A stretch of 55,626 nucleotides of DNA from a virus. Under the pieces are notes generated by a model. The model saw only the letters and a list, made by a program, of their open reading frames with translations, had not been told where the DNA came from and did no database searches. The stretch lies in the IMG/VR virus record IMGVR_UViG_3300021495_000006, positions 1-55,626 of that record; one strand, 5' to 3'. The translations under genes and the position numbers were made by a program. Every line of letters begins with the position of its first letter. The first letter of the stretch is position 1. Below, one piece after another: positions 13,088-52,883 of this stretch.

Positions 13088-13196
13088 AGTAAGCTCCTCC
13101 TTATAATCTCTGCCCCGCCGTCTAGCGGCAACCCGCAGGGCTTCTGGGCAATTTACGCCGATTAACCCATCACGAACGGGGCAGAGAATTTTAAAC

Positions 13197-13273
13197 GCGG
13201 GCGGACAGGATTTGAACCTGCGAACAGGGCTTTTGGAGAGCCCTGGTTTAGACCTGACTCACTCCACGCCCGC
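13197..13273 (-). tRNA. tRNA-Trp (CCA)
   Basis: The acceptor arms GCGGGCG and CGCCCGC pair fully. The anticodon arm GGGCT-CTCCAAA-AGCCC gives anticodon CCA, in the same loop sequence as bacterial tRNA-Trp. The T arm is GCAGG-TTCAAAT-CCTGT. The D arm is unusually long (20 bases) with only a weak stem, and there is one extra base between T stem and acceptor. CCA is not encoded. It reads UGG and may boost supply for this Trp-rich proteome, or it may be degenerate. Confidence 0.75.
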
Positions 13274-24359: not shown

Positions 24360-24378
24360 CTTGTGCCATCCCCCTCAG

Positions 24379-24449
24379 AGCGGGTAAGGGGATTTGAACC
24401 CCTACCAGCGGGCTGGCAGCCCGATATGCTACCATTACACCATACCCGC
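24379..24449 (-). tRNA. tRNA-Gly (GCC)
   Basis: A 71-base gene with a fully paired acceptor stem (GCGGGTA/TACCCGC), canonical D arm with TGGTAG, anticodon loop CTGCCAG giving GCC, and T arm GGGG-TTCAAAT-CCCC. CCA is not encoded. It lies between two tail genes and reads GGC/GGU, abundant in the glycine-rich tail and wall proteins. Confidence 0.9.
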
Positions 24450-36989: not shown

Positions 36990-37549
36990 TCCTTAATCGC
37001 CTCCACATAAAGCGATTGCTCTTGGTGGTAGTCCTGCGTTTCGGCCTGCATCACTGGTGAATGGCTTTCACCCGGTCGCATGGGCACAATCCGCTTGAAC
37101 CCAGCCATCTCTAGCGCCTGCTTCAAGCCATCCCAAGTATAGGCATGTTGGTGACCTGTATACTCTTCACGCCCCGAAAGCGCCCCGAACAATATGCAGG
37201 CCAGCTTATTGTCCTCGTTCAATTGCTGGTAGATGGGGGGCTGGCAATGGGCAAAGTCGCCCATCTCACGGCGCACCCATTTTTCCAGCAACAGCCCAAA
37301 GTCGGGAACAGCAAGCCGCATTACCGCCCCGCGCTTCATCACCCGATGGCATTCCCGTAAGAAACGCAAGGCCTCAATGATGTTCAAATGCTCCAAGAAA
37401 TGAGAGGCATAGATAAGGTCCACACTGTTGTCGGGATAGGGCAATCCCCAGCGCACATCCCGCAGGATGATGCCGGGCCCCGGCTCTTTATCTATGTTGT
37501 GCCACCCTGGGAAGGTGTAGGGCCCACAGCCAATGTTAAGCTTTATCAT
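36986..37549 (-). CDS. SAM-dependent methyltransferase (class I)
   Basis: A 187-residue protein. LNIGCGPYTFPGWHNID is the SAM-binding motif I and following loop, with LPYPDNSVDLIYASHFLEHL at motif IV. It belongs to the glycan/FkbM-like small-molecule methyltransferase style rather than to DNA methylases. It starts inside the glycosyltransferase end, so the two are translated together. ATG 37549 follows GGGAAG. Confidence 0.85.
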   Translation of the reverse strand: MIKLNIGCGPYTFPGWHNIDKEPGPGIILRDVRWGLPYPDNSVDLIYASHFLEHLNIIEALRFLRECHRVMKRGAVMRLAVPDFGLLLEKWVRREMGDFAHCQPPIYQQLNEDNKLACILFGALSGREEYTGHQHAYTWDGLKQALEMAGFKRIVPMRPGESHSPVMQAETQDYHQEQSLYVEAIKE

Positions 37550-40500
37550 AATCTTCCCACTCTCTTAACCACTCCTCGGCCACACCCTCCCAACTGAAGT
37601 TGGGAGCATAAGCTTTGCCCTTGGCCGCCCACTTCTTGCGGAAAGCCGCATTGGCCAGCAGGCTTACAGCAAAGCCGATAAACATCTGCTGATACCGCCC
37701 GCTGGCCACATAGCCCGGCACCAGGATACCCCTATCCCCCACCGTCTCCGGCAAAGCCCCGCAGGTTGACGTAAGAATCGCCAAGCCCGCCGCCATTGCC
37801 TCCATTGCGGTGATACAGTTGTGGATGACCACACCACCGGCCACAAAGTTGTGTGTGCCCTCGACTTCCATGTTGTAAACGTCTTCATACCCATAAAAGG
37901 ACACAGAAGCCACGCGGTGATTGGCTTGTTGGATTTTCCTACGGGCCAGGCGCGCACATTCCCGCGAACAATATTTGGCCGTTTCCAATCTGTACAGTTG
38001 TACTTCAAACTCTTTGCCACAATATTGGCAATGCAATTTAACTCTTTTGCGGCGAGTCCGCCCCCTACGAAAGACAAACTCCCGCCGCTCCTCCTCGGTC
38101 ATGGAATTCCACAGCGCATGGCCCGCTATCGAGGCACGGCGGCGTTTCTCTTCAGGTGTCAGGCTAGCCCACCATTGTTCAAACCTCGCCTTTCGTTGCT
38201 TCACGCTGATTTTGCTTGGCGGGCGTTGATTGGCAAACGTTTTCTTGGCATGGGCCGAGGGGCTAAGTGCTTGTAGGTTCCCAACCTCATTATTGAAAGC
38301 ATTGCCATCAATGTGGTCTATGTGATAACCCTTAGGTATTGTCCCGTGCGCCCACTCGTACACTAAACGATGCTCATGCTTCCAAGGGCCCTCACCCGTT
38401 CCTACCTCTACGGATATACGTTTTTTAAGACTAACAACTCGGTCGCCAACAGCCAATTGGCTAATAGGCACCCATCCCCGCTCATAAGTCAAAACAAGGT
38501 GATCGGGTGTAGCCTTGAGGCAAGTGCCATCATCCCATTCAACCTTCCAAACTTCGGCTCGGCTACGGGTTTTCTTGACCCATTTGACCGTGCTCAATAC
38601 AAAGGTGCCTGTCTGTTCGTCATAAGACCACACGGGGAATTCGCTGCGCCCCACCAACTCCTTAATAGGCACGCCAAGAGGATATTTGCTGTAGTCTCGC
38701 GGCATGTCAATGAGAGTATCACCTGTGCAACATGATACCTCCAGGAAGGCAGTCGGATAGAACCAGCACCCTGCCGATAGGAATTCGAGAGCTAGTTCGT
38801 CCTGATTCACCCGCCCATGCCAGACGACATTGGGCGTTGCCTCAATCTGTTTCTCCACTTTCTGCTTAAACTCACGCAGTTGGGGCACTTTTTCGATGTT
38901 TTGCCAGCCATAGTAAAGGTGCAGTTCGGCGTCTGGCACAGCCCTTAAGATGACCGGCCACATTGCCAAAAGGTAATCCAACCCCCGGTCGGGGCTTGAG
39001 GCATAGACCACTTTATGCGGATTGCGCTTTACATCCCGGTCAAAACGGGAGAGGTCAATGCCGTTGCGCGTGGGCTTGAGATTGTTCAAGAAACCATAAC
39101 ACATCTGTAAATAATCCGAGTGCCACTGGGAAACGCCCATGATCCGGTCGAAGAAGTGCCCGCGCTCTGGCGTCATGTTGCCGCCCAGGTGCAAATCATG
39201 CACCCATAGCCACTTGACCTTGCCTCCCGCTTGGGCATCGGCCAGCAGCAATCCAGGAAGCCGCCAGCCTACCAGAAGGTCGGGCTGCATATCCGGCTTA
39301 TACCAGGTGTACGGCCAATAGCCCACCCCTTCGTATTCGCCCGCATATTTACCGCAGTCGTTGAAGACATCCACGTGCCAGCCCGCCTTAGCCAACAGTC
39401 GGGCCATGTGGATAACCGCCGTCTCGCTACCTCCAATGCCGCCCTTATGTAGCGAAGGCGGCCCCCATTCCTCCAAACTCTTCCCGCAATAGAAGACGGC
39501 CCACGGGCTATCGGTTGACCGTTGGCGGAAGGCAGCTTTTGTTACCCTTTTGCGAACTTCTGGCACGTCCATTAACTCTGGCGGGATAGGCGTTTGGAGC
39601 ACCGCTGCATCCGGCGCGCCTTCCCAAAATTTCAGCAGCCCCGCCGCTTTGGTGCGTAACTCCAAGATGTAATCGTAAATCTCCAACTTCTTCTTAAGGT
39701 GCTCCGAGTTGGGCGACACCTTCAAGGCGTCTATCACAATCTGTCTGGCCGTCTCCAAATCGCCAATGTGATAGTAGGCGATGTTGGCGAATAGTGCGGG
39801 ATTATACGTGTAATCCAGGGGATTGGTGAAGATAGCCGCGTCGGGCACTTTGGCCATGCGTCCCAGCTTGTCCCACCAAACGGCCTTCTCATATCGCCCC
39901 ATCCTGGTATAGGCTTCGCTGATCCCGAAGTAAGGATCGGCCCAGTCGGGAAAAAGGACGATGGCCTCTAGGTTTTTTTCAATGCATCTTCGGTAGTCCC
40001 CCAAGAGGCAGTAGCAGTCCGCCAGGAAATGAAGGGCTTGCCATCTCTCCTCCAGCGCGGATTCCAAGCGCAGGTAACGCTCATACCACAAAGCCGCGTT
40101 CTCCCAATCGCGGAGCGCATAATACTGATGCGCAATATAACACAGTGTACGCTTATCGTTAGGATTCTCTTCATAATCCATCTCCAGAAGCTTGAGATTG
40201 CGCTCCGGGTATCCGCGTCCAGTGGGGCTACGATGTAGCACCACAATGTCGGCACTACGGGCGAATTTGGTCGGCCCCAAGGCCTTTAACCCCTCATGCA
40301 CCCGCCGAATCCACGTCCACCCTATGCTCCGTTTAACGGCCCTCTCCCTGGTGAGGATGGTGATACAATTGCCGTTGTCGTCGAAACCATAGAAATAGGC
40401 CAGAAGCAAGCAGCCATAGCCTTGCTTGTCCAGCTTTTCAATAAGCGGTCGCAGCTCTTCGGCATTGTCCAATACGTCGTCAGCGTCCAGCCAGAAAGCC

Positions 40501-40781
40501 CAATCGGTGGTCAGTTTTTTGTAGACTTCATTGCGTGCTTGAGCGAAGCTGGCAATGCATTCGCCATAGTCCTCGAATTGGAATTTAGGCAGCCATGTCA
40601 GGTCAACGGCTTCGCCGCCGAATTCCTCCACTATTTGGCGTGTCTCGCCTTCCCAGCCCTCTTTGCTGGTGATGCCGACAACAATCTGGTCAAACTTGAC
40701 TGGCTTAACGCTCTCCAAACAAGCTCGCAAACTCTCGGTCTCGTTGCGGCAAATAAGATGTAGCCCGATTGTAACAGACAT
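37536..40781 (-). CDS. Bifunctional glycosyltransferase interrupted by an intein
   Basis: The 1081-residue precursor has three mature parts and one intein. Residues 1-115 form a GT2 domain with the DxD-type DADD at 99-102. Residues about 195-370 are TPR-like helices (YYALRDWENAALWYERYL). From about 430 a GT4 domain follows (GGIGGSETAVIHMARLLAKA, ASSPDRGLDYLLAMWP). The intein occupies 684-988, splitting the conserved GT4 stretch EVS/CITAMEAMAAG. After splicing the enzyme is 776 residues. It probably adds sugars to phage or host glycans, with its methyltransferase, radical SAM and glycosyltransferase neighbours. ATG 40781 follows AAAAGGAGG. Confidence 0.9.
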   Translation of the reverse strand: MSVTIGLHLICRNETESLRACLESVKPVKFDQIVVGITSKEGWEGETRQIVEEFGGEAVDLTWLPKFQFEDYGECIASFAQARNEVYKKLTTDWAFWLDADDVLDNAEELRPLIEKLDKQGYGCLLLAYFYGFDDNGNCITILTRERAVKRSIGWTWIRRVHEGLKALGPTKFARSADIVVLHRSPTGRGYPERNLKLLEMDYEENPNDKRTLCYIAHQYYALRDWENAALWYERYLRLESALEERWQALHFLADCYCLLGDYRRCIEKNLEAIVLFPDWADPYFGISEAYTRMGRYEKAVWWDKLGRMAKVPDAAIFTNPLDYTYNPALFANIAYYHIGDLETARQIVIDALKVSPNSEHLKKKLEIYDYILELRTKAAGLLKFWEGAPDAAVLQTPIPPELMDVPEVRKRVTKAAFRQRSTDSPWAVFYCGKSLEEWGPPSLHKGGIGGSETAVIHMARLLAKAGWHVDVFNDCGKYAGEYEGVGYWPYTWYKPDMQPDLLVGWRLPGLLLADAQAGGKVKWLWVHDLHLGGNMTPERGHFFDRIMGVSQWHSDYLQMCYGFLNNLKPTRNGIDLSRFDRDVKRNPHKVVYASSPDRGLDYLLAMWPVILRAVPDAELHLYYGWQNIEKVPQLREFKQKVEKQIEATPNVVWHGRVNQDELALEFLSAGCWFYPTAFLEVSCCTGDTLIDMPRDYSKYPLGVPIKELVGRSEFPVWSYDEQTGTFVLSTVKWVKKTRSRAEVWKVEWDDGTCLKATPDHLVLTYERGWVPISQLAVGDRVVSLKKRISVEVGTGEGPWKHEHRLVYEWAHGTIPKGYHIDHIDGNAFNNEVGNLQALSPSAHAKKTFANQRPPSKISVKQRKARFEQWWASLTPEEKRRRASIAGHALWNSMTEEERREFVFRRGRTRRKRVKLHCQYCGKEFEVQLYRLETAKYCSRECARLARRKIQQANHRVASVSFYGYEDVYNMEVEGTHNFVAGGVVIHNCITAMEAMAAGLAILTSTCGALPETVGDRGILVPGYVASGRYQQMFIGFAVSLLANAAFRKKWAAKGKAYAPNFSWEGVAEEWLREWEDYDKA
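37818..38732 (-). other. Intein with HNH homing nuclease
   Basis: A 305-residue intein. It starts with CCTGDT (block A, nucleophile Cys684), has a TxxH-like block B (ATPDHLVL), and ends in GTHNFVAGGVVIHN followed by the +1 Cys (blocks F/G, penultimate His and terminal Asn). The HNH nuclease sits in the middle (HRLVYEWAHGTIPKGYHIDH, then IDGNAFNNEVGNLQ), followed by a four-cysteine finger (CQYC...CSREC). Removal rejoins EVS with CITAMEAMAAG, a conserved GT4 sequence, which places both splice points exactly. Confidence 0.9.
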
Positions 40782-41509: not shown

Positions 41510-44500
41510 TTAGGCAGCCTGCTTCTGGGTGGTGACGTGCTCCAGACGCACGATCGCGTTCTGATCCAAGATGACACAGGCGTGAGCCAATCTGTTACTT
41601 TTGTGACCATCCCTGCGGGATGGCGGGTGGTCATTTCTGCCACCTCTGCACGTTCATTTCCGTGCAGTTCGGACTATGCCATCACTCTTACGAGTGCGCC
41701 GTCTCTAGTCTCTACACACGCCCACACTCCCCCACAGGAGTGCTGCTTGGCTCGGCGTCGCCATCTCAGGTTTCCGCCGAATTTACGGCGTTTTACAAGG
41801 CCAACTCCGTCAGCCTTCCATCCATGCACCCAATACTGTGCCAACGGATCAGTCTTCGTCGGCGTCGCGGGCACGAAGTACGTCTGAGCCGCCATAGCAT
41901 CCAACTCGGTAATTCCGTAGGCATTCTTGCCGATGAAGAGGGTGCCGTATACGTCCGCTCCCGAAAGGCCCAAGCTGGCGTAAATCTTGGCGTTGGAGGT
42001 CACGACAAATTTGACCCCCAAGTAGTCTCCGATTTCGCCAGTGAACAAGGGGTTGTTGGGCCCACGCGGAGCAGCCCGCTGGAACGCCTCGTTGATGTCA
42101 TCATCGGCAAACATATCCGCCTCGGTGTCGGGATGGATGCAATCTGTTACTTGCATGACCCCATCATTACCCTACCATTACGATGGGGCGGGCAGGCATG
42201 TCTGCCTACCTCTGCGCCTTCCACATTAGGTTATACGCGCAGTTCGGACTGTCGCACCATCTCCGCAATGGAGAGCCCCTCGCTCAGTCTCTACACCCCG
42301 GCCCATGCGGGCCGTTGGCTCGCGGTAACCCACCTCTGGGTGTCCCCCGAATTCAGAGAGGTTTTTCATGCAACCTCACGGCTGCATGGCACCATGCCGA
42401 TGCAAATATACTTCCCATCCACTACCGGCTGGATGTTGTTCCTCTTCAAGGTCTTGACGGCTCGACGGATTTCGGCTGCCGTCAGGAGCATGCCGCTGCC
42501 CACCTGGCCACGCGAACCGGCTGTGGAGGCATACAAGACGTTAGAGCCCGATTGAAGGACCTCACGGTCAATAATATCCAGGGTGAGGCCCATCTGTTCT
42601 GATCTGTTACTTGATGACCTTGGAACATTAATGTTCCAAGGCGGGCGGTCATTTCTGCCGCCTCTGCATGTCGCCATGCAGTCCGGACTCTCCCTTCATT
42701 GCGCCCTATAGGGCGCAATGCCCCCCGTCGAGTCTCTACACCTTCCCGATACGAATACCGGGCTTGGCTCGCGGTTGTCTCAAAGAGACTTTCCCCGAAT
42801 TTGAGGGGTTTACCCTGGGCGAACAGTTCACCCATGAGCTCCGCAGTCTCGGCCAGCACGTTGTCAATCGCCTGCGTCTCCACAAGGTCGCTACCACGGA
42901 TGTAATCCAATCTGTTACTTTGGTGACCACACTATTAGAGTGTGGCGGGTGGTCATTTCTGCCACCTCTGCATGTTTCCATGCAGTTCAGGCCGTCGCTT
43001 CATCCTCTCGGATGCCGTCTCGCTCGGTCGTTGCGGCTGCTCCTACGGCGTTGAGCTTCCGCATCTTATGATACAGCTCCTCACGCCGTAGTAGCTCCCT
43101 CTGTTTTACCTCCTCGGATTGATTACGCCTGTCCACATAGTTGAGAATAAAATCCAGGAGGATTTCGGCTTGGGGCCTTTTCACTCGTAAGTAGGGCAAC
43201 ACCAAACACAACGCCCGGAATACACACCTACGCCCACTTACGACCCAGCGGTAAATTGGCCTTCGGCCATCAGAGGGAGCGCGCTCTATGCGGACACTAC
43301 CGCCCAAGTGTTTGGCCAACAAGTCTATTGGCTCTTTGTCCACCATGCCCACGCTTATGTAAGTAGTGTATCGAGTATCCTTAACGTGGAACTTGGGGTT
43401 GGGCTTCATCTTACAGATTCTAAGCGTGCCTTCGCCGTCTAGAATCCCCGCCAAGTATCCGTATAGAGCCGCTTGCCTCGGGTCATCATGCAGGATTGCC
43501 ATTGCAATCTCCTGTTTAGACTTTCCCGGTATTCAGAGACGGTTTTACTACGGCAATTCCCATTACCGTACTGGCTGATCGTCACAGTGACAGCGGTCAT
43601 GCTCAAGTTGCTGCCTGAAGGGGGCGTGCCCTCAGTCAGGGCAGTCGTCGCAGCAGCAAGAGACTTGAACTTCCTGAACTCAATGCTCTTGCCCGCGCCT
43701 TTTGGGATATTGCGCTTCTGCGCAAACTGCCCGTGAACCAGATTCATGTTTGTTACTCTACCCCCCCCGCTAGTGTGGGGGATAGGGCCTGGTCATTTCT
43801 GCCAGGCTCTGCATGTCGCCATGCAGATCAGACTATTTCATGCTCTCCGCCTTTAATCGTATCGGCTGAGAGCCTCGCCGTATAGTCGTTGAGAGCGCGA
43901 TCTTGGGTTGCTTGGCAGGCAATTGCCGGAATCGCTCCAAAAAGCTCATTTCCTTGGCGATTTCTTCCTCGGTTCGTGCCTTGTGGGGCAAGCGGCGACC
44001 ATGCCAATCACGCTCCCAGTCTCTATCATTGAACCGGCTGGCCTGCTTCCACTCCGCAAATTCGAGGATTAATTCAGCTCGCGGCTTCTTGCAGGTCAAG
44101 TATGGCAAAACAATCCTCAGCAATCGCACAACAGAGTTAATGCGACACACTGTGATTGCCACGGAATCATGCCAATGTTCCCGGCCCTTTTTCCCTTGGT
44201 GGCGGTTGAGCGTGTAGTAATAATGCACTCCCCACCGGGAATAAATCTCACTTAGGCGGCGTAACAGGCTAAACTCCGTGCTTGTCACAGAGATTTTAAT
44301 GCCAAGCGATTGTGTGCCATTGCCCTTATTCCTGACCTCATATAAGCCGCATGAGCCTTCGCCATCCAAAATGCCTGCCACCCATCCGACCTCGATTGGG
44401 TCGGGATCGCGTCTGCTAGTTGTCTCCACCATGGGTCTTTTCCTCCTTTGGGGCCAACGGATACACGAGACTTTCTAGCATAAGGCGAGTTTGCAATTAG

Positions 44501-44899
44501 CGGTCACCCGCTAATGGCCCTATATAGCTAAGGCAAGGCACGCTCAAGCAGCTTTTTGTCGTAATCCTGCTGTTACCCCATCCTGAAGGATGTGGCTTGG
44601 TCATTTCTGCCAAGCTCTGCAACTTCACTTCGTTGCAGTACGGACTGTGGCTTACCCCTATGCCGTCGCACAGGGCCCCCCGCTCAGTCTCTACCGCTGC
44701 CCGCCACATTCTGTGTAACGATAGTGCCCTTTCCGGTAATCATCGTGACACAAAATGTGCTGCTTGCCTCGGCGTGACCATCTCAGGCTTCCGCCGAATT
44801 CAGGGGGGTTTGACGCCTGCATTACTGCAAGCGGACGCATCACGTATACGTCTTCGCTTCTAGCGTGAGGGTAGACGCCAAAGTCTCGATATTAGCCAT
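41510..44899 (-). CDS. Major capsid protein, N4-gp56 family, seven exons
   Basis: Exons, in transcript order, are 44899-44846, 44566-44531, 43744-43565, 42907-42830, 42599-42400, 42139-41812 and 41587-41510. Spliced, they give 954 bases and 317 residues, normal for the N4-gp56 capsid family. Family motifs cross the junctions: KKLLERALP|NLVHG, ISQYG|DYIRGSDL, ELMG|EQMGLTLDII, GKYIC-I|IHPDTEADMF, VHGWKA|AHACVILDQN. Each exon ends in T, and the sequence after it can pair with the exon end, as in group I introns. At intron 4 the bases GAAC occur on both sides, so the exact cut is ambiguous but the product is the same. The scaffold gene lies just upstream. ATG 44899 has GAGGTGAGGG upstream. Confidence 0.93.
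41588..41811 (-). mobile_element. Group I intron 6 (no ORF)
   Basis: A 224-base intron between Lys-Ala (AAGGCT) and GCTCAC. The exon end AAGGCT pairs with GGCCTT, with U-G at the cut. The core has GAGACTA and TAGTCC, a canonical P7 pair. The end is GTAACAGATTG. It shares about 40 bases of 5' core with intron 1 (AATTCGGCGGAA, CTGAGATGG, ACGCCGAG). Confidence 0.9.
42140..42399 (-). mobile_element. Group I intron 5 (no ORF)
   Basis: A 260-base intron, inserted within a codon (AT|C). The exon end GCAT pairs with GTGC, with U-G at the splice. GAGACTG and CAGTCC form P7. The 3' end is GTAACAGATTG. The P9 region is longer than in its relatives. Confidence 0.9.
42600..42829 (-). mobile_element. Group I intron 4 (no ORF)
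   Basis: An intron of about 230 bases. The exon end TGGGT pairs with GCCCA, U-G at the cut. GAGACTC and GAGTCC form P7. The 3' segment has CTGCATG/CATGCAG, then a CAGAAATGA loop, then a P9-type hairpin. A 4-base repeat GAAC at both ends leaves the exact boundary uncertain by up to four bases. Confidence 0.88.
42908..43564 (-). mobile_element. Group I intron 3 with LAGLIDADG ORF
   Basis: A 657-base intron. The exon end TACGGT pairs perfectly with GCCGTA, U-G at the splice. The ORF begins soon after the 5' core; its last codons overlap the 3' core (ACGACC ... CGGCC, P8 CATCC-GAGA-GGATG). The P7 pairing has one mismatch, the weakest of the six. The 3' end is GTAACAGATTG. Confidence 0.85.
42987..43502 (-). 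CDS. LAGLIDADG endonuclease of intron 3
   Basis: A 171-residue protein with one LAGLIDADG helix, LYGYLAGILDGEG, near residue 13, so it works as a homodimer. The family pattern VLPYLRVKRPQAEILLDFI is shared with the intron 2 enzyme (PYLTCKKPRAELILEFA). It should cut intronless capsid genes at the insertion point; some relatives also act as maturases. ATG 43502 follows GGAGATTGC. The ORF end is part of the ribozyme core. Confidence 0.88.
   Translation of the reverse strand: MAILHDDPRQAALYGYLAGILDGEGTLRICKMKPNPKFHVKDTRYTTYISVGMVDKEPIDLLAKHLGGSVRIERAPSDGRRPIYRWVVSGRRCVFRALCLVLPYLRVKRPQAEILLDFILNYVDRRNQSEEVKQRELLRREELYHKMRKLNAVGAAATTERDGIREDEATA
43745..44530 (-). mobile_element. Group I intron 2 with LAGLIDADG ORF
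   Basis: A 786-base intron inserted after TTGCCT; exon end GCCT pairs with GGGC, U-G at the cut. The core at its 3' part has ACGACTA and TAGTC (P7) with GCTCTC/GAGAGC (P8). The ORF's final codons run through this core. It ends AACATG before AATCTG. Its 5' part differs more from the other introns. Confidence 0.87.
43833..44432 (-). CDS. LAGLIDADG endonuclease of intron 2
   Basis: A 199-residue protein with one motif helix (VGWVAGILDGEG, near residue 17) and the conserved strand and helix pattern of phage intron enzymes. It is homologous to the intron 3 enzyme. ATG 44432 follows AAAGGAGGAAAAG, so it is set up for its own translation. It probably promotes homing of intron 2 into intronless capsid genes. 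Confidence 0.88.
   Translation of the reverse strand: MVETTSRRDPDPIEVGWVAGILDGEGSCGLYEVRNKGNGTQSLGIKISVTSTEFSLLRRLSEIYSRWGVHYYYTLNRHQGKKGREHWHDSVAITVCRINSVVRLLRIVLPYLTCKKPRAELILEFAEWKQASRFNDRDWERDWHGRRLPHKARTEEEIAKEMSFLERFRQLPAKQPKIALSTTIRRGSQPIRLKAESMK
44567..44845 (-). mobile_element. Group I intron 1 (no ORF)
   Basis: A 279-base intron after exon TAT. Exon GACGTAT can pair with ATGCGTC. GAGACTG and CAGTCC give P7. A CTGCAAC/GTTGCAG hairpin and GCTTGG/CCAAGC with the shared CAGAAATGA loop follow. It ends GTAACAGCAG before GATTAC. It is closest to intron 6. Confidence 0.88.
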
Positions 44900-45815: not shown

Positions 45816-48800
45816 TTACCATCGCCTATACCAGCGCAACTTAGGCGCTCTCCGCACCCGCCTGCGCTTGGGCTCTGTAAGCGCCAGGTGCGCCGCCAGG
45901 CTTTGGGCTAATGCCGCAAGCCATTCCGGTGATTTGTCTTGTAGCCAGGCCGCCAAATCGGGATACCGCCGCAAGAACCATCCTCTCTGCGCTTCGGGCA
46001 AAAGAAGATAGCTCTGTATCAGCTCCAAAAGCCCCTTATCCTCCATGCCCTCGGCGAATTTCCACCAATCGGTGGCCATATCCTCCAATGTCTCACGCTT
46101 CGTCTTGCGGCGTCTGCGGCCCCGCCTCCGCTTTGGCTTCGGTGTATACGGCTGCCATGTCGGGTAGAGCCACTTGACCATCACCGGATGACTGGCTTTC
46201 CATTCGTCCATGAAGCGCCAGGCCGGTTCCAATTGCTCACGCAGGGCCTTGCGTTTGTTGAACTCCCACCATTTCAGCTTAGAATAGGCGTCCATCAACT
46301 CGGAGTAATTGGGGACGATGGAACGCACGGCCTCCCACATTTCGGCCCGTTCACGCAAGGCCTGGTCGTATTCCGCCGCCAGCTCCGGTGATACGCGCTG
46401 GAACCGTCCACTTGGGGCTTGCAACCCCGCTTCCGTCAAGGCCGCGCCCGGCCAGGGCTTGGGTTCATAAGCGCCCCATTCCTTCAGGAATTCCGCCTCC
46501 GCAGCCTTGACTGCCGCGCCCCTGGCCTCTGCCATCTCAGGCAATAAGCCAGGGTCAAGCCCGGCATAGTTGAGCCAGTATATCAGCTCTTCATCGGTGA
46601 TGGCGTCGTAATCCCGCGTCTTCTTGTTGACAAAGAGCCTCTGGAAGCGGTCGCCCAGCGCCTTCTTCAAGCGCCTCTTATCCAGCGCGGGCAAGGCCAT
46701 GTAGAACTCCCACAGGTCGCTGATGGCCCTATCCCTTGGGCTCATGCCCCGGCGCCGGACTTCTTTAAGCCCCGGCAGGGTGATGTCCCGATAAATCTCC
46801 GCAAGCTGGTCGTATGTCCAGCCCTTCTCTGGATACATCGCCAGCACACGGGTGATGAATTCGGTGGCGGGCCGAGCCGGATAATTTGAATAATATTTAT
46901 CAAATAACTCGGCCCGCTCCGCCCCGCTCAAGCCCTCGGCCTCCGCAAACATGGCCTTCTGAGCAGGGTTGATGACCGTCTCTTTGTAAACTCGCCACAG
47001 GGCCTCTTTGGGGTCATCGTTGCGGCGCAGATAACGCTCCAAGCGCGCACGGGTGAGCCAGGATAGTTGCGGTATCTTGCCCTTAATGCCCATTTCCCGC
47101 AACGCGCTCTTATCGAGATAGGGCAGCCACTTCTTGGGATTGTTCAGGAACTCATCGCGCGCCCGGTAGAAGGCATCCCAATCAATCTTGCCCTCTTTGT
47201 CCTTAAATTGCTCTGGCTGAATGGCATAGTAGGCTTCAGCAACCGGCCGCAATGCTTTGTCTTCATAGTAGGTTTCGATCTCGCTGGGCGTCCAGCCCCA
47301 GAACGAGGGCGTGCGCACTATGTCTTTGTATTCATCATCAAGTGCATCTAACTCTTCCTGCCGCTTGCGGTATATCGTCTGCCGAGCACGCCAATCGCCC
47401 AATGGGACTTTATCCAAGTCTTTGGCATAGCGGTCATAAATGGCCCTGCGCTTGTCGTAGTATTCGCGCTCCCTGAATTGCACCACCCGTTCGGGGCCAG
47501 GCGTCCAGAGCAAGCCCCGGCTTGTATACCACGGATTGGCCTCATACCACTTCCGCCTGGCCTCTCGAATCTCCGGCCCCTTTTCCCCGGCTCGCTCTCG
47601 CTCGTAAATCTCCGCCAAGCCCTCTGCACGCCGGATGCGCATTTCGCCCTTCGGTAGCAACCTGGGCCGAATGCCTAGAAAATAGGATACCGCCGTTGGG
47701 AGTTGTTTTAAGATAGCCGCCCGATTAACCGCCTCCTCCCATATTGGCCCCTGGTGATACATTGGACTGGCCGGGTTCAAGACGGCATCGCGCTCCTCCG
47801 GTGTGATCTCCTCATTGGCCGCCATGTCCAATACCATGCTCTCCGGCCAGTATTCTGCTTCATAGCCCGCCGCTTCCGGCAGGCCCAAGCCCACACGGAA
47901 GGGCTTTTCGATGTTCAATCCGCCGGGCGGGATCCAACCGAAGCGCTCCGGCCACTTCTCCCGCATGTAAGCGGTCATGCCCTTCAACACGCCCGTCTGT
48001 GGGAGAATATACCAAATATTCTCCCGCTTGCCCCGCGCCATATCCAAGGCCACCTGTAGCGGCCAATGCGGAGCCATGCCGAAGATGTGTTGCAAGTCAG
48101 CCAGCCTGTCCAAAGCAGTCTTGGCCTCATTGTTATCGTCCCAATCCACTTTGGCCAAGTAATTGAACGGCCAGACTCCCACGTGGGGAAAGATGAAGGG
48201 CATGATGTCAATAGGGACGCGCTTCTCTGCCCATTCCGGTAAAGCTTCGGCCACACCCTCAGGCGCAGGCACAAAGAGGGCCGTCGGCCCGTAGCGCCTG
48301 GGGAAGCCCATCTCCTCATTGATGCGCTCGATAGCCTTGCGCATACGGTAATAGCTTGTGACCGTCCAGGGCTTGGTAATCATACGCATGGCCGCCTGAT
48401 AGCCGGTGCGTGTAGGCCAGAAATGGAACGGGAAGAATAAAGCGATTAGACGGTCAAGCTCATAGCGCTTGTCATAATCGTAAAGAGCCCGGTTGACGAC
48501 CTCATAGGCCCATTGCAATTTAGCCATGTTCGCGTCTTCCCTGGCAGGCACAAGCACCTGCTTCACCCTATCCAGGAAGACACGCTTTAGCTCTTCGACC
48601 ACCGGCTCTGCTTTATCGCGGGTGATGCCCTTCTTCAGGCGTTCGATAAGCTTTAGCTCTGCCTCACTTGCCGACCGCACGCCCTTGGCATAGCTGGGCA
48701 TCCCACTGGTCATGGCAGCCGCGCGGGATAGCGCTCGTGTGGCAATGCGCTCATAATCCTTCGCCGTGCTGCCTTTGAACCGCTTGGCCTGCTTCCGAGC

Positions 48801-51800
48801 CCATTCTGCAAAGTCGCCCAGCCACTTGACGTATTCATCCGGCGGCTCTGCCTTGCTGATGTCGGTGACCGGAACACTGAACGCCCGGCCCTTCTCTGGG
48901 TCGTATACCCATGTGAGCACAGCGCCCGAACGAACGCGCGCTGTCCTAGCTGCAATGCCATCCCCTTTCGGCGTATGCACCCAATCAGCCGGCTGCACGC
49001 CGCCAGGTAGAATCTTGGGCGGGGCCTTGGGCTTGGCTACTTTCGGTGCCTTCGGCTTCGGCGCTTTCTCTATTGCCTTGGCCGCCTCCGCCTCTGCCTT
49101 GAGCACTTCATCAAATTCCTCAAGCGGCGCTTCAGCAATCGGCTTCAGTTCATCCCACCAACCCTGGGCCTTTGCCAACTTCTCGATGTCATCTAATTCC
49201 GCTTGGACAGCAGCCCGCCTAATGGGGGAGGCGTTCACCCGTGTGAGACCGGCCAATAGCTTTTTCCGGCTCTTATAGCGGTTAAGATCGCCCTCCCACC
49301 TCTTCGGCTTAGTGACCTTCGGCGGCGCAGCGGCTTCCTCTACAAGTTTCGGCTCCCCCACAATCTCCCAGCCGGACGGCCTGGCGAATTCACGCAGTTC
49401 ATCCCACCAGCCCTCGGCCCTAGCCCTTTCAGCAATTTCGTCCAGCCTTGCACGGATACGCCCCGTCTCGCTCTCAGGATAGCCCCGGTCAATGTAGTCT
49501 CGTAACTGGCGTATCAGCCGCTTATACTCCGCCACCTCATCGGCGTGGACGACCTCCATCGCCTTCTTCATGCCCAGCTTAGCACGCAAGGCATTGGCCT
49601 CGGCGCGTAAGTCCTTCTCTAGCTTGGGGGCTATGGCACGGCCCAATCGCTTCTGCTCATCCAGGAAATTCTCGATGGTCTCCAGCCGCTTGCGAGCCTC
49701 GTTCTTGGTCATCTTAGCCACACGTTCGGCCATAGTGGTGGGCTTCTCCGCTACCTTGGCGACTTCTGGAACCGCCTCAACTGCGGCCTCCTCCACCCTC
49801 GCCGCTTCAACGGCCTCGGCCACTTCTTCGGCCTTGGGGATAATCTTCTCACCTTCCTCCACCGCTTCCTTCGGCAATGAGGCCAACTCCGCCTTCAGCG
49901 CCTTGATGCGGCCCTTGAGCTCTTTGACCTTCTTGTGGGCGTCTACATAATCCCGAACGGCCTGGAGCAAATCCTCTTGGGAACGGAAGCCCAGCTCGGT
50001 GGCCATATCATCGGTAACCGCATACTCCCACGAGACTAACTTGCCCGTGGCCCTGTCACGCACACGCTTGAAGGTGCCCGTGTGATAGTCCCACAGCTTG
50101 AAGACCGTCTTCTGATCCAAGGGCTGGGCCTTGAGGTAATCCTGCAACGATTCCAGATATTGCTCCGTCTGGTAAAGTTCGGCCTGGAGATCCGCCGCCT
50201 TCTCCGCCGCCGTCTCGACCTCTTTGATGGCCTTCGGCGCTTTTTCGACCACGCCCTCAAGGGCAGGATGACCGCTCAATAGCTGATAGGTGGGCGTATT
50301 GGCTTCGGCCATCTTTGCCCATAGGTAATCCTGCCACTTCTTGGCCAATTCCGGCTGCTCCTCGATGAACCGCCGTAGCTCCGTGAGTTTCGTTGGGAAG
50401 GGAATGTCGGGGCTGACGTGCTTGGCCCAAGCGCGCCGGGCATATTCGCCCTTCTTCCACATATCGAGCTCATAGGCGGCCTTCGCCATCTCGTCGGCGC
50501 TCATCCACAAGCCTTCAGCCGTCGCCCCGCGTTCGGTCATCTCGCGCACCATCGTGGCGTAGGTGCGCTTGACAATCTCCTCTGGCTTGCCTTTACGGAA
50601 TTCCTCCGCCGCCTCGATGCCCGGAAGCAACGCCGCCTCTTTGGGCTTCACCGTGACGGGCAGGTTCTCCAGTTGCTCAGCCCGAGCCAGTCGCTTCTCA
50701 ATCTCCGCCGCGACTTCATCCACGCCTTTGGCCAACTTCTCGGCATCATCCCCGGCTTCATCCACGACTTCCTGAATGGCCTTGACGAAGCCAGGCGAAA
50801 CCTCCTCGGCATCGTCAATATAGCGAGCCACCAAGGTGAGGCCACTTAAGGCCTTCTCGGTGTTCTCGATAAGCTCCTCGCCATTGAGGGATTGTCTCCA
50901 CGCTGCAATCAGGTTGGCCTTAGTGTTGGGATCAATATAAGGCCACAGGTCATCAAAGGCCGAGAGGTCAATCAGCCCACCCGGGCGCCAATAGAGATCG
51001 TCGAATTTCTGGCAGGCCCGATAGGATGCCCCATACCGCGCCCAGGCCTCGCCCAGCAGCGGTATGTTGCCGCTGTAAAGGCGTCGGCCCAGGTCGGCCA
51101 ATTCCCGGATGATGGGCAATCCCCGCTTAGGCCCTCTATACTCCCGCGTCAAGCCCAAGCCGCGCTGAAACTGCGCCGGGCTGAAGCCAAACGAGCGAAT
51201 CATGTAATCGTCAATATGATTATGCGAAGCGAAGGACAGCAACCCGTCATACGTCAGAAAACTCACATTGCCCGCCGCATTCCTGATAAGGGCCCTGGGA
51301 GAGATGCCCATGTAGAAGTCGGCCATAAAGCTCTTAAAGCCCTGGGCATACTTCTCCGCCGTGCTGGGCGGCTTCACACCATAAAGCTCGTTAGTCACCT
51401 TGATGGACTTGTCATAAAGCTCGCTCAGAAAGTCCATCAGCTTGAACTCACGGTCGGGCTTCAGCGTGCGGAAGCTGTCAATGTCCATCATCTTGAGCGC
51501 CTTCCGCACCTCATTGGCCGCCGGGGATTTGACGAACGAGCCGAATTCGGGTGGCAAGCTCTCCGGGGCCTCCACAAAGCTCTTGAGCAAAATCTTGGCT
51601 TCATCCGGTGTCTTGGCACGCCGCAGCACCAATCCTGTGAAACTGTTAAGGTGCCTATCCAACGCCCTGGCCTTGCTGTGTGCAGTGATGCGGAAGGGGT
51701 TAAGCTGCTCGATCTTGCCCCCGATCTGCTGCCATGCCCGCTTGAACCAGGGCATTTGCTCCACCGTCTCTTGGACGATAGGCTCTGCCTTGCGAACGAA

Positions 51801-52883
51801 CTGATTGCGCACCCGATTCAACAGGCGCACATCGCGGAGCTTGCCCAGCCAACTGCCTGCTATGTCGAGCGGGTCGAGCACAATCTGGCCAATGGCTTCG
51901 ACAATTGGGTCTTCATACTTCCGCACTACTTCGTCAATGGACGCGCCCTGTTTAATTTCATCGAGTGCCTTCTCCAACCGTTCGGGATGGGCGCCCCAGG
52001 TGTAGTAGGTGCGCGCCAGCTCCGCCGTCTCCTTGGGTGGCAGATTAAGCTCCCGCAGCTTTTCATCGGCCCGACGCCAGGCTTCAACTTGTTCGGGCTT
52101 TATCTCCACGCCGCCCAATAGGGCTGCCGCCTCCAGATGTGTCATCGGGTGCTCAGGCACCACGCGCTCATAGGCGGCTTTTGGACGGCGCTTCATAGCC
52201 TCCAATGCATAGGTGCCAATGCCGCGCTCTAACCAATAGGCCGGTTGCTGCAATGCTTTGACAGCTCCCTTAACGGCCTCCTCCGCCGTGCGGGGGATGA
52301 TACCAGCTATCGGTTGGCGCTTCCAGGCCCGCCAAGCCTCCAATGCTCCAGCCAAAGGCGCAGTCACAACCTCGGGTGCAGGCTTCCCGATGGCCTCCAC
52401 TGTGGTAGGCGGCAAGAAAGGCCGCTCCGCGAGTTGCTGCTTAATGGTCTCCACCGCCTCGCGTGTGCCTTCCGGCTTCTCCACCGTCGGCGGTGGAACC
52501 TCAATCCTAGGCGGTGCAGCTTTCACGGCCACGGGAGGAGGAGGCGTCACCACTTCCGGTTTAGGCCATTCCTTAAGCGGCATGGGGAAATATGGACGAC
52601 GCCTTTTGCGCTCGAATTCCTCTTCGGCCCTCTCCACGCCACGCTCTACCTTGGGGGCTTCCGCCGCCCTTCGCCAGGCCTCCATCCCTGCAATCTGCCG
52701 CTGCCATGCTTCGGCGGGCACTTCTTCCGGTGGTGTCCAACCCTTGGCACGCAGGGCCGAACCCTCAACGCCCGGCTTCCACACCACCTTATAACCCGCC
52801 CGCCGCCATTGCTCCTCAACAGGCAGGTTGAACCAATCCTCTCTATTCCCTTGTCCTGTCCCGATGTTAATGGTGACCGCCAA
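45816..52883 (-). CDS. Giant virion or injected protein (2355 residues)
   Basis: A 2355-residue protein. The N-terminal 250 residues are Pro/Ala-rich and basic. A middle part has helical domains with ISPRALIRNAAGNVSFLTYD, like large phage polyvalent or internal virion proteins. About residues 900-1300 hold Ala-, Lys- and Glu-rich coiled coils, and the last 1000 residues are aromatic and charged (FFPFHFWPTRTGYQAAMRMI). Position between portal and scaffold, with no tape-measure pattern, suits an internal or DNA-ejected protein. I see no polymerase or lysozyme signature. The start is TTG 52883. Confidence 0.7.
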   Translation of the reverse strand: MAVTINIGTGQGNREDWFNLPVEEQWRRAGYKVVWKPGVEGSALRAKGWTPPEEVPAEAWQRQIAGMEAWRRAAEAPKVERGVERAEEEFERKRRRPYFPMPLKEWPKPEVVTPPPPVAVKAAPPRIEVPPPTVEKPEGTREAVETIKQQLAERPFLPPTTVEAIGKPAPEVVTAPLAGALEAWRAWKRQPIAGIIPRTAEEAVKGAVKALQQPAYWLERGIGTYALEAMKRRPKAAYERVVPEHPMTHLEAAALLGGVEIKPEQVEAWRRADEKLRELNLPPKETAELARTYYTWGAHPERLEKALDEIKQGASIDEVVRKYEDPIVEAIGQIVLDPLDIAGSWLGKLRDVRLLNRVRNQFVRKAEPIVQETVEQMPWFKRAWQQIGGKIEQLNPFRITAHSKARALDRHLNSFTGLVLRRAKTPDEAKILLKSFVEAPESLPPEFGSFVKSPAANEVRKALKMMDIDSFRTLKPDREFKLMDFLSELYDKSIKVTNELYGVKPPSTAEKYAQGFKSFMADFYMGISPRALIRNAAGNVSFLTYDGLLSFASHNHIDDYMIRSFGFSPAQFQRGLGLTREYRGPKRGLPIIRELADLGRRLYSGNIPLLGEAWARYGASYRACQKFDDLYWRPGGLIDLSAFDDLWPYIDPNTKANLIAAWRQSLNGEELIENTEKALSGLTLVARYIDDAEEVSPGFVKAIQEVVDEAGDDAEKLAKGVDEVAAEIEKRLARAEQLENLPVTVKPKEAALLPGIEAAEEFRKGKPEEIVKRTYATMVREMTERGATAEGLWMSADEMAKAAYELDMWKKGEYARRAWAKHVSPDIPFPTKLTELRRFIEEQPELAKKWQDYLWAKMAEANTPTYQLLSGHPALEGVVEKAPKAIKEVETAAEKAADLQAELYQTEQYLESLQDYLKAQPLDQKTVFKLWDYHTGTFKRVRDRATGKLVSWEYAVTDDMATELGFRSQEDLLQAVRDYVDAHKKVKELKGRIKALKAELASLPKEAVEEGEKIIPKAEEVAEAVEAARVEEAAVEAVPEVAKVAEKPTTMAERVAKMTKNEARKRLETIENFLDEQKRLGRAIAPKLEKDLRAEANALRAKLGMKKAMEVVHADEVAEYKRLIRQLRDYIDRGYPESETGRIRARLDEIAERARAEGWWDELREFARPSGWEIVGEPKLVEEAAAPPKVTKPKRWEGDLNRYKSRKKLLAGLTRVNASPIRRAAVQAELDDIEKLAKAQGWWDELKPIAEAPLEEFDEVLKAEAEAAKAIEKAPKPKAPKVAKPKAPPKILPGGVQPADWVHTPKGDGIAARTARVRSGAVLTWVYDPEKGRAFSVPVTDISKAEPPDEYVKWLGDFAEWARKQAKRFKGSTAKDYERIATRALSRAAAMTSGMPSYAKGVRSASEAELKLIERLKKGITRDKAEPVVEELKRVFLDRVKQVLVPAREDANMAKLQWAYEVVNRALYDYDKRYELDRLIALFFPFHFWPTRTGYQAAMRMITKPWTVTSYYRMRKAIERINEEMGFPRRYGPTALFVPAPEGVAEALPEWAEKRVPIDIMPFIFPHVGVWPFNYLAKVDWDDNNEAKTALDRLADLQHIFGMAPHWPLQVALDMARGKRENIWYILPQTGVLKGMTAYMREKWPERFGWIPPGGLNIEKPFRVGLGLPEAAGYEAEYWPESMVLDMAANEEITPEERDAVLNPASPMYHQGPIWEEAVNRAAILKQLPTAVSYFLGIRPRLLPKGEMRIRRAEGLAEIYERERAGEKGPEIREARRKWYEANPWYTSRGLLWTPGPERVVQFREREYYDKRRAIYDRYAKDLDKVPLGDWRARQTIYRKRQEELDALDDEYKDIVRTPSFWGWTPSEIETYYEDKALRPVAEAYYAIQPEQFKDKEGKIDWDAFYRARDEFLNNPKKWLPYLDKSALREMGIKGKIPQLSWLTRARLERYLRRNDDPKEALWRVYKETVINPAQKAMFAEAEGLSGAERAELFDKYYSNYPARPATEFITRVLAMYPEKGWTYDQLAEIYRDITLPGLKEVRRRGMSPRDRAISDLWEFYMALPALDKRRLKKALGDRFQRLFVNKKTRDYDAITDEELIYWLNYAGLDPGLLPEMAEARGAAVKAAEAEFLKEWGAYEPKPWPGAALTEAGLQAPSGRFQRVSPELAAEYDQALRERAEMWEAVRSIVPNYSELMDAYSKLKWWEFNKRKALREQLEPAWRFMDEWKASHPVMVKWLYPTWQPYTPKPKRRRGRRRRKTKRETLEDMATDWWKFAEGMEDKGLLELIQSYLLLPEAQRGWFLRRYPDLAAWLQDKSPEWLAALAQSLAAHLALTEPKRRRVRRAPKLRWYRRW

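Follow-up and report, generated by a model that had tools for sequence, protein, structure and literature searches.

Several group I introns may reside in a single phage gene. Three are found in a gene of Staphylococcus phage Twort and up to three in polymerase and terminase genes of the Bastillevirinae (PMC11878797), while the Jug phages carry an average of 18.5 introns per genome, distributed over many genes (PMC12363816). Major capsid genes are also known hosts. That of the crAss-like Zeta-group phage cMAG OLRF01000054 lies in five fragments, separated mostly by group I introns, and the density of introns and inteins was called unprecedented (Yutin et al. 2021, PMC7886860). The major capsid gene of Mycobacteriophage LittleE holds a probable group I intron with a LAGLIDADG-like open reading frame (ORF), the splicing of which was shown by reverse transcription-PCR (PMC3706429). 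No phage gene with more than four group I introns was found in the open-access literature. The virus record IMGVR_UViG_3300021495_000006 of IMG/VR, analysed here over its full 55,626 bases and hereafter called the window, encodes on its minus strand (41510-44899) an N4-gp56-type major capsid gene made up of seven exons and six introns. It is of a known kind, the intron-rich phage capsid genes, with an intron number above that of the published phage cases found.

Like the Twort and Bastillevirinae genes, the window gene combines several group I introns, but it holds six rather than three and encodes a capsid protein. It shares with the crAss-like Zeta gene a major capsid frame in many pieces; there, however, the insertions number four, three of them known by their endonuclease domains, whereas in the window there are six with their RNA cores and borders resolved, and the capsid is of the N4-gp56 type, unlike that of the Zeta gene. 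LittleE likewise pairs a capsid intron with a LAGLIDADG-like ORF, although its intron is single, compared with six, and its ORF lies on the opposite strand. We consider it about 95% probable that members of one widespread family of phage group I introns have entered the major capsid gene of an uncultivated tailed phage at six separate sites and are spliced out to give a normal capsid mRNA. This reading rests on the restored frame, the core structures, covariation within the intron family and homologues free of the insertions.

Removal of the six introns (282, 786, 657, 230, 260 and 224 nucleotides, in order) takes out 2439 of the 3390 bases of the gene (72%) and leaves a coding sequence of 951 nucleotides for a protein of 316 residues, a length that replaces the 317 of an initial sequence-only reading. 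The spliced protein was checked against TIGR04387, the NCBI equivalog profile of the N4-gp56 major capsid protein, and gives a full-length match of 243.8 bits (E 2.8e-72; score cut-off 60 bits), in which residues 8-309 align to profile positions 3-323. The unspliced sequence yields no more than three separate matches to this family, with 60, 57 and 32 bits. By its gene content, the uncultivated virus of bacteria is a tailed phage, since the window encodes a terminase large subunit (1038-2438; PHROG E 4e-20).

The intron borders were set by three rules: continuity of the protein, a U before the cut that pairs to a guide-sequence G, and an intron ending in G. A spliced-alignment program was written as a test, using a capsid profile drawn from other phages and without the window protein, and it recovered all six introns with borders identical to the rule-based ones. 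Its score was 199 with introns allowed, compared with 81 without introns and 81-99 with introns at displaced positions. Together with the TIGR04387 match, this establishes as real the six breaks and the single restored frame that the sequence-only reading had described. The program grants small bonuses for a T preceding an intron and a G ending it, and the borders depend partly on these; once they are removed, the borders of introns 2, 3, 4 and 6 shift by one base, that of intron 5 is unchanged, and intron 1, which bounds a first exon of 17 residues, is no longer called. Five of the intron lengths originally proposed stand, and only that of intron 1 changes, from 279 to 282 nucleotides (44847-44566). 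The shorter form was rejected on the U.G pair of P1 (GACGU/GCGUC), the terminal G, a P10 of 6 base pairs and the ...KTYYxK... of the homologues. Given these borders every exon ends in T, as first noted, with a cut one base later equally possible at intron 4.

Exon 1 (44848..44899, 52 nucleotides) begins with the ATG start and ends in GACGT. Intron 1 (44566..44847) is without an ORF and displays the P1 and P10 just mentioned along with P2, P3, P4, P7 (GACUG/CAGUC), P8, P9 and P9.1. Following exon 2 (44531..44565, 35 nucleotides), intron 2 (43745..44530; P7 GACUA/UAGUC) contains a putative homing endonuclease ORF, as does intron 3 (42908..43564; P7 GACCG/CGGCC), which is reached after exon 3 (43565..43744, 180 nucleotides). 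The remaining three introns are without ORFs. Exon 4 (42830..42907, 78 nucleotides) precedes intron 4 (42600..42829; P7 GACUC/GAGUC), exon 5 (42400..42599, 200 nucleotides) precedes intron 5 (42140..42399; P7 GACUG/CAGUC), and exon 6 (41812..42139, 328 nucleotides) precedes intron 6 (41588..41811; P7 GACUA/UAGUC). Exon 7 (41510..41587, 78 nucleotides) closes the gene with the stop codon TAA. The final base is G in five of the introns. At the end of intron 4 (42599-42602) the sequence reads ATCA|GAAC, such that the intron is A-final if cut at the U.G pair, whereas a cut after the next base, at a G-C pair, makes it end in G; the message is identical with either candidate cut.

The helices P3, P4, P7, P8, P9 and P9.1 could be placed by hand in the correct order in all six introns, including the two that carry ORFs, while P5 and P6 were resolved in introns 2 to 5 and by folding in introns 1 and 6. 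P7 keeps its pairing through different sequences; the earlier observation of P7 partners in every intron stands, with an imperfect pairing in intron 3, where one A.C mismatch occurs. A U.G pair at the 5' cut is likewise available in six of six, with the G-C pair one base later as the alternative at intron 4. The best pairing partner of each 5' exon is the guide sequence of its own intron; the closest cross-matches are those of exon 6 with the intron 2 guide (-6.1 vs -7.3 kcal/mol) and of exon 2 with the intron 6 guide (-4.6 vs -5.3 kcal/mol). Pairing of the guide region with the 3' exon (P10) backs the 3' splice sites of five of the six introns, with 6 base pairs in introns 1 and 4, four in intron 3, three in intron 5 and, by eye, four with one bulge in intron 6. 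Helices P7.1 and P7.2 are typical of IA introns, as in T4 or Twort. The space between P7 and P3 in the window introns leaves no room for them, a further apparent difference from the Twort introns.

Where the sequence-only reading had looked for six matches to RF00028, the general group I model of Rfam (gathering score 50 bits), one intron of the six passes, namely intron 4 with 65.4 bits. Introns 6 (31.5 bits) and 2 (27.1 bits) fall below the gathering score, and introns 1, 3 and 5 were not among the matches listed. The introns were instead connected through a family of their own. The motif GCAGAG-N1-3-GGCAGAAATGACC is common to five of the six, occurring five times in the window against none expected, and is present in at least 120 stretches of IMG/VR and 82 stretches of GTDB genomes. 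R1, a covariance model that covers P7-P9.1 and was made from the six window introns, detects the family at least once in nearly all motif-bearing IMG/VR loci. The covariation score of the family, calculated over 105 distinct members, is 0.516, compared with 0.142 for shuffled and at most 0.077 for slid partners, in an alignment fitted to the structure, which favours the score; changes on both sides were found in 23 of 23 pairs, five P7 pairs included. Because R1 is circular for the window, a second covariance model (R2) was built without the window introns, from 71 introns of other contigs that had first been chosen with R1 and contribute no sequence from the window. In the window R2 matches exactly six places, which are the six introns (E 9.9e-21 to 9.9e-14), and nothing in the rest of the window at E<=1. 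In 16 other loci, 28 matches of the family to RF00028 exceed the gathering score, and by Rfam the family is group I. The six introns belong to this one family, which is widespread in uncultivated phages. Core structure, family covariation and the independently built model all support the assignment, made at the outset, of the six interruptions to group I.

The same data bear on whether the insertions act at the level of protein or translation, as inteins, programmed frameshifts or bypassing, rather than as RNA introns. As might be expected of such elements, the exon frame stays open throughout intron 4 and for more than 40 codons in introns 3 and 6. Introns 1, 2 and 5, however, have in-frame stops within 12 codons, the lengths of introns 4-6 are not divisible by 3, no intein family was seen, and the inserts have a covarying RNA structure in common. 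Inteins and frameshifts were rejected on the stops, the lengths and the shared structure, and the probability left to this explanation as a whole is negligible.

Homologues provide a separate line of evidence. A three-sequence profile found 427 relatives in IMG/VR, and the 80 with the best matches, in 581 kb of sequence, were compared. None of the 80 has an insertion within 3 residues of any junction that it spans (79-80 homologues per junction), and R1 found no intron in the 581 kb. Homologous capsid proteins containing the intervening peptides, which by the sequence-only reading would have told against introns, were not found among the 80, all of which read through the spanned junctions. It is also conceivable that the arrangement is an artefact of assembly, a chimera of intron-bearing and intron-free sequence from different phages, given that the record is a metagenome-derived virus contig. 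Against this, six separate insertions are all placed so as to restore the frame exactly, and many independent contigs from other samples have the same arrangement; an artefact is accordingly very improbable.

Several observations nevertheless weigh against six functional group I introns in the capsid gene. Intron 4 either ends in A or is cut after a G, P7 of intron 3 contains the A.C mismatch, P1 of intron 5 has only 4 base pairs, and a search for P10 in intron 2 gave no clear pairing. Intron 4 alone passes Rfam, both intron ORFs lie under the Pfam LAGLIDADG cut-offs, and the choice of the 80 homologues by rank of match favours uninterrupted genes. The first four of these could also signify a decayed capsid gene, in which at least one ribozyme no longer splices and the phage uses another capsid or is defective. 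Yet all seven exons remain open in the spliced frame and are conserved there, with the whole protein scoring as highly as given above, and the helices are kept in all six cores. Non-standard pairs at the P7 position of the intron 3 mismatch are also found in 7 of the 105 distinct family members, and the window holds no second capsid gene of the N4-gp56 family. Decay is improbable on this evidence, if less so than misassembly.

With invasion and splicing as the preferred reading, each intron would adopt a group I ribozyme fold in the transcript, with P7 binding an external guanosine that would cut after the U of the P1 U.G pair; the freed exon end would then attack the 3' splice site to join the exons. 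Six such reactions would yield the mRNA for the normal N4-gp56 capsid protein. For this scheme we infer splicing in the cell, its guanosine dependence and the activity of the endonucleases. Intron-free capsid genes probably receive, or once received, the introns through the action of the two LAGLIDADG-like homing endonucleases, and the four short introns have probably lost their endonuclease ORF or spread via recombination.

The two ORFs in question encode 199 residues in intron 2 (43833..44432, minus strand; phrog_5046, E 2e-13) and 171 residues in intron 3 (42987..43502, minus strand; phrog_5046, E 5e-24). Both contain the motif AGILDGEG, the label of phrog_5046 being HNH endonuclease. With Pfam LAGLIDADG_3 the intron 2 ORF scores 16.8 bits (0.008) against a cut-off of 22.5, and the intron 3 ORF has no match. 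The two ORF products share 27% identity over 114 residues (E 1e-7) and are further related to ORFs of other loci that bear the intron family. Their layout is also the same: each begins within the loop of P5 and continues across the 3' strands of P5 and P4, with its body looped out of P6 and its stop codon placed in the 3' strand of P7. In intron 3, a predicted hairpin within P5 (43490-43514; CAGGAGAUUGC AAUG GCAAUCCUG) takes in the ribosome site and ATG of the ORF, an arrangement that, judging from the modelled fold, possibly limits translation of the endonuclease.

As to how the gene acquired its introns, the six window introns are scattered, not grouped, on a tree of 110 members (aligned part approximately 100 nucleotides). 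This distribution speaks for arrival on six separate occasions and not for the copying of one intron along the gene, and recent copying within the gene was rejected on the same tree, short as the compared sequences are. Introns 1 and 6 share 85% identity over 55 nucleotides of their 5' halves, and so a part-exchange between these two is possible.

An N4-type capsid gene is present in 19 of 41 records with the intron family. By spliced alignment, those of loci L121 and L104 hold four introns and those of L063, L051 and L054 three, with one or two in several others. Approximately 20 insertion sites are found in these other N4-type genes, one of which coincides with that of window intron 4. At L053 (3113-3400) a family intron occupies the capsid position and phase of window intron 4 in a distant capsid gene, and the two possibly share a homing site.

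A second head-protein family, phrog_9953, is similarly affected, with seven introns in L296 and L304, five in L287 and L297 and four in L306. The two most heavily interrupted genes, for each of which about seven group I introns are predicted, lie at 1901-5654 of L296 (IMG/VR contig 3300005434_000025) and 2493-5599 of L304 (IMG/VR contig 3300037840_000553), where the raw model matches number eight and nine, respectively. Some of the phrog_9953 borders are approximate, as several predicted ends break the splice rules; close relatives with uninterrupted genes have 322-361 codons. On the minus strand of L011 (3784-7796, contig 3300020122_000089), about nine family matches fall within 4 kb, one of them truncated by the end of the stretch, and PHROGs matched only endonucleases and a methyltransferase in the interrupted gene.

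The genes of L121, L104, L063, L296, L304, L287 and L297 are like that of the window in intron family, in encoding a capsid protein and in their many insertions, but their insertion sites mostly differ. Intron-riddled capsid genes are many in IMG/VR, and undescribed in the open-access literature searched. Six introns in a capsid gene, which the sequence-only reading had called exceptional, remain so beside the published phage cases found, and not beside IMG/VR, where some other capsid genes have four to seven introns of this family.

Elsewhere in the window, the minus strand encodes a 1081-residue ORF (37536-40781) that matches glycosyltransferases over its first two thirds and an HNH endonuclease in the last third. 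Adjoining the capsid region upstream is a 2355-residue ORF (45816-52883, minus strand), which has no Pfam match and only weak PHROG matches. Genes for tRNA-Trp (cca; 13196-13271) and tRNA-Gly (gcc; 24378-24449, minus strand) are also present.

Genes of this type are easily missed, as one of six introns passes Rfam and a search of the unspliced sequence sees the capsid only in three pieces. Few phage products are usually as abundant as the capsid protein. If six ribozymes act on every message, near-complete splicing would be needed at each step, for 90% per intron would leave about half of the messages. The gene would therefore offer a natural test of how well a large number of ribozymes cooperate in one transcript with ribosomes behind them, of how exon skipping is avoided, each guide fitting its own exon best, and of why head genes gather introns. 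A broader and tentative proposal, which we think rather unlikely as a whole, is that a single group I family has repeatedly targeted capsid genes in uncultivated phages that are unrelated to one another, leaving six, seven or more introns in a gene of approximately 1 kb coding length, the densest load known in bacterial or phage protein genes, and that this load may exceed parasitism. Were this true, the introns may, for example, delay or gate capsid synthesis, or their endonucleases may attack the capsid genes of competing phages.

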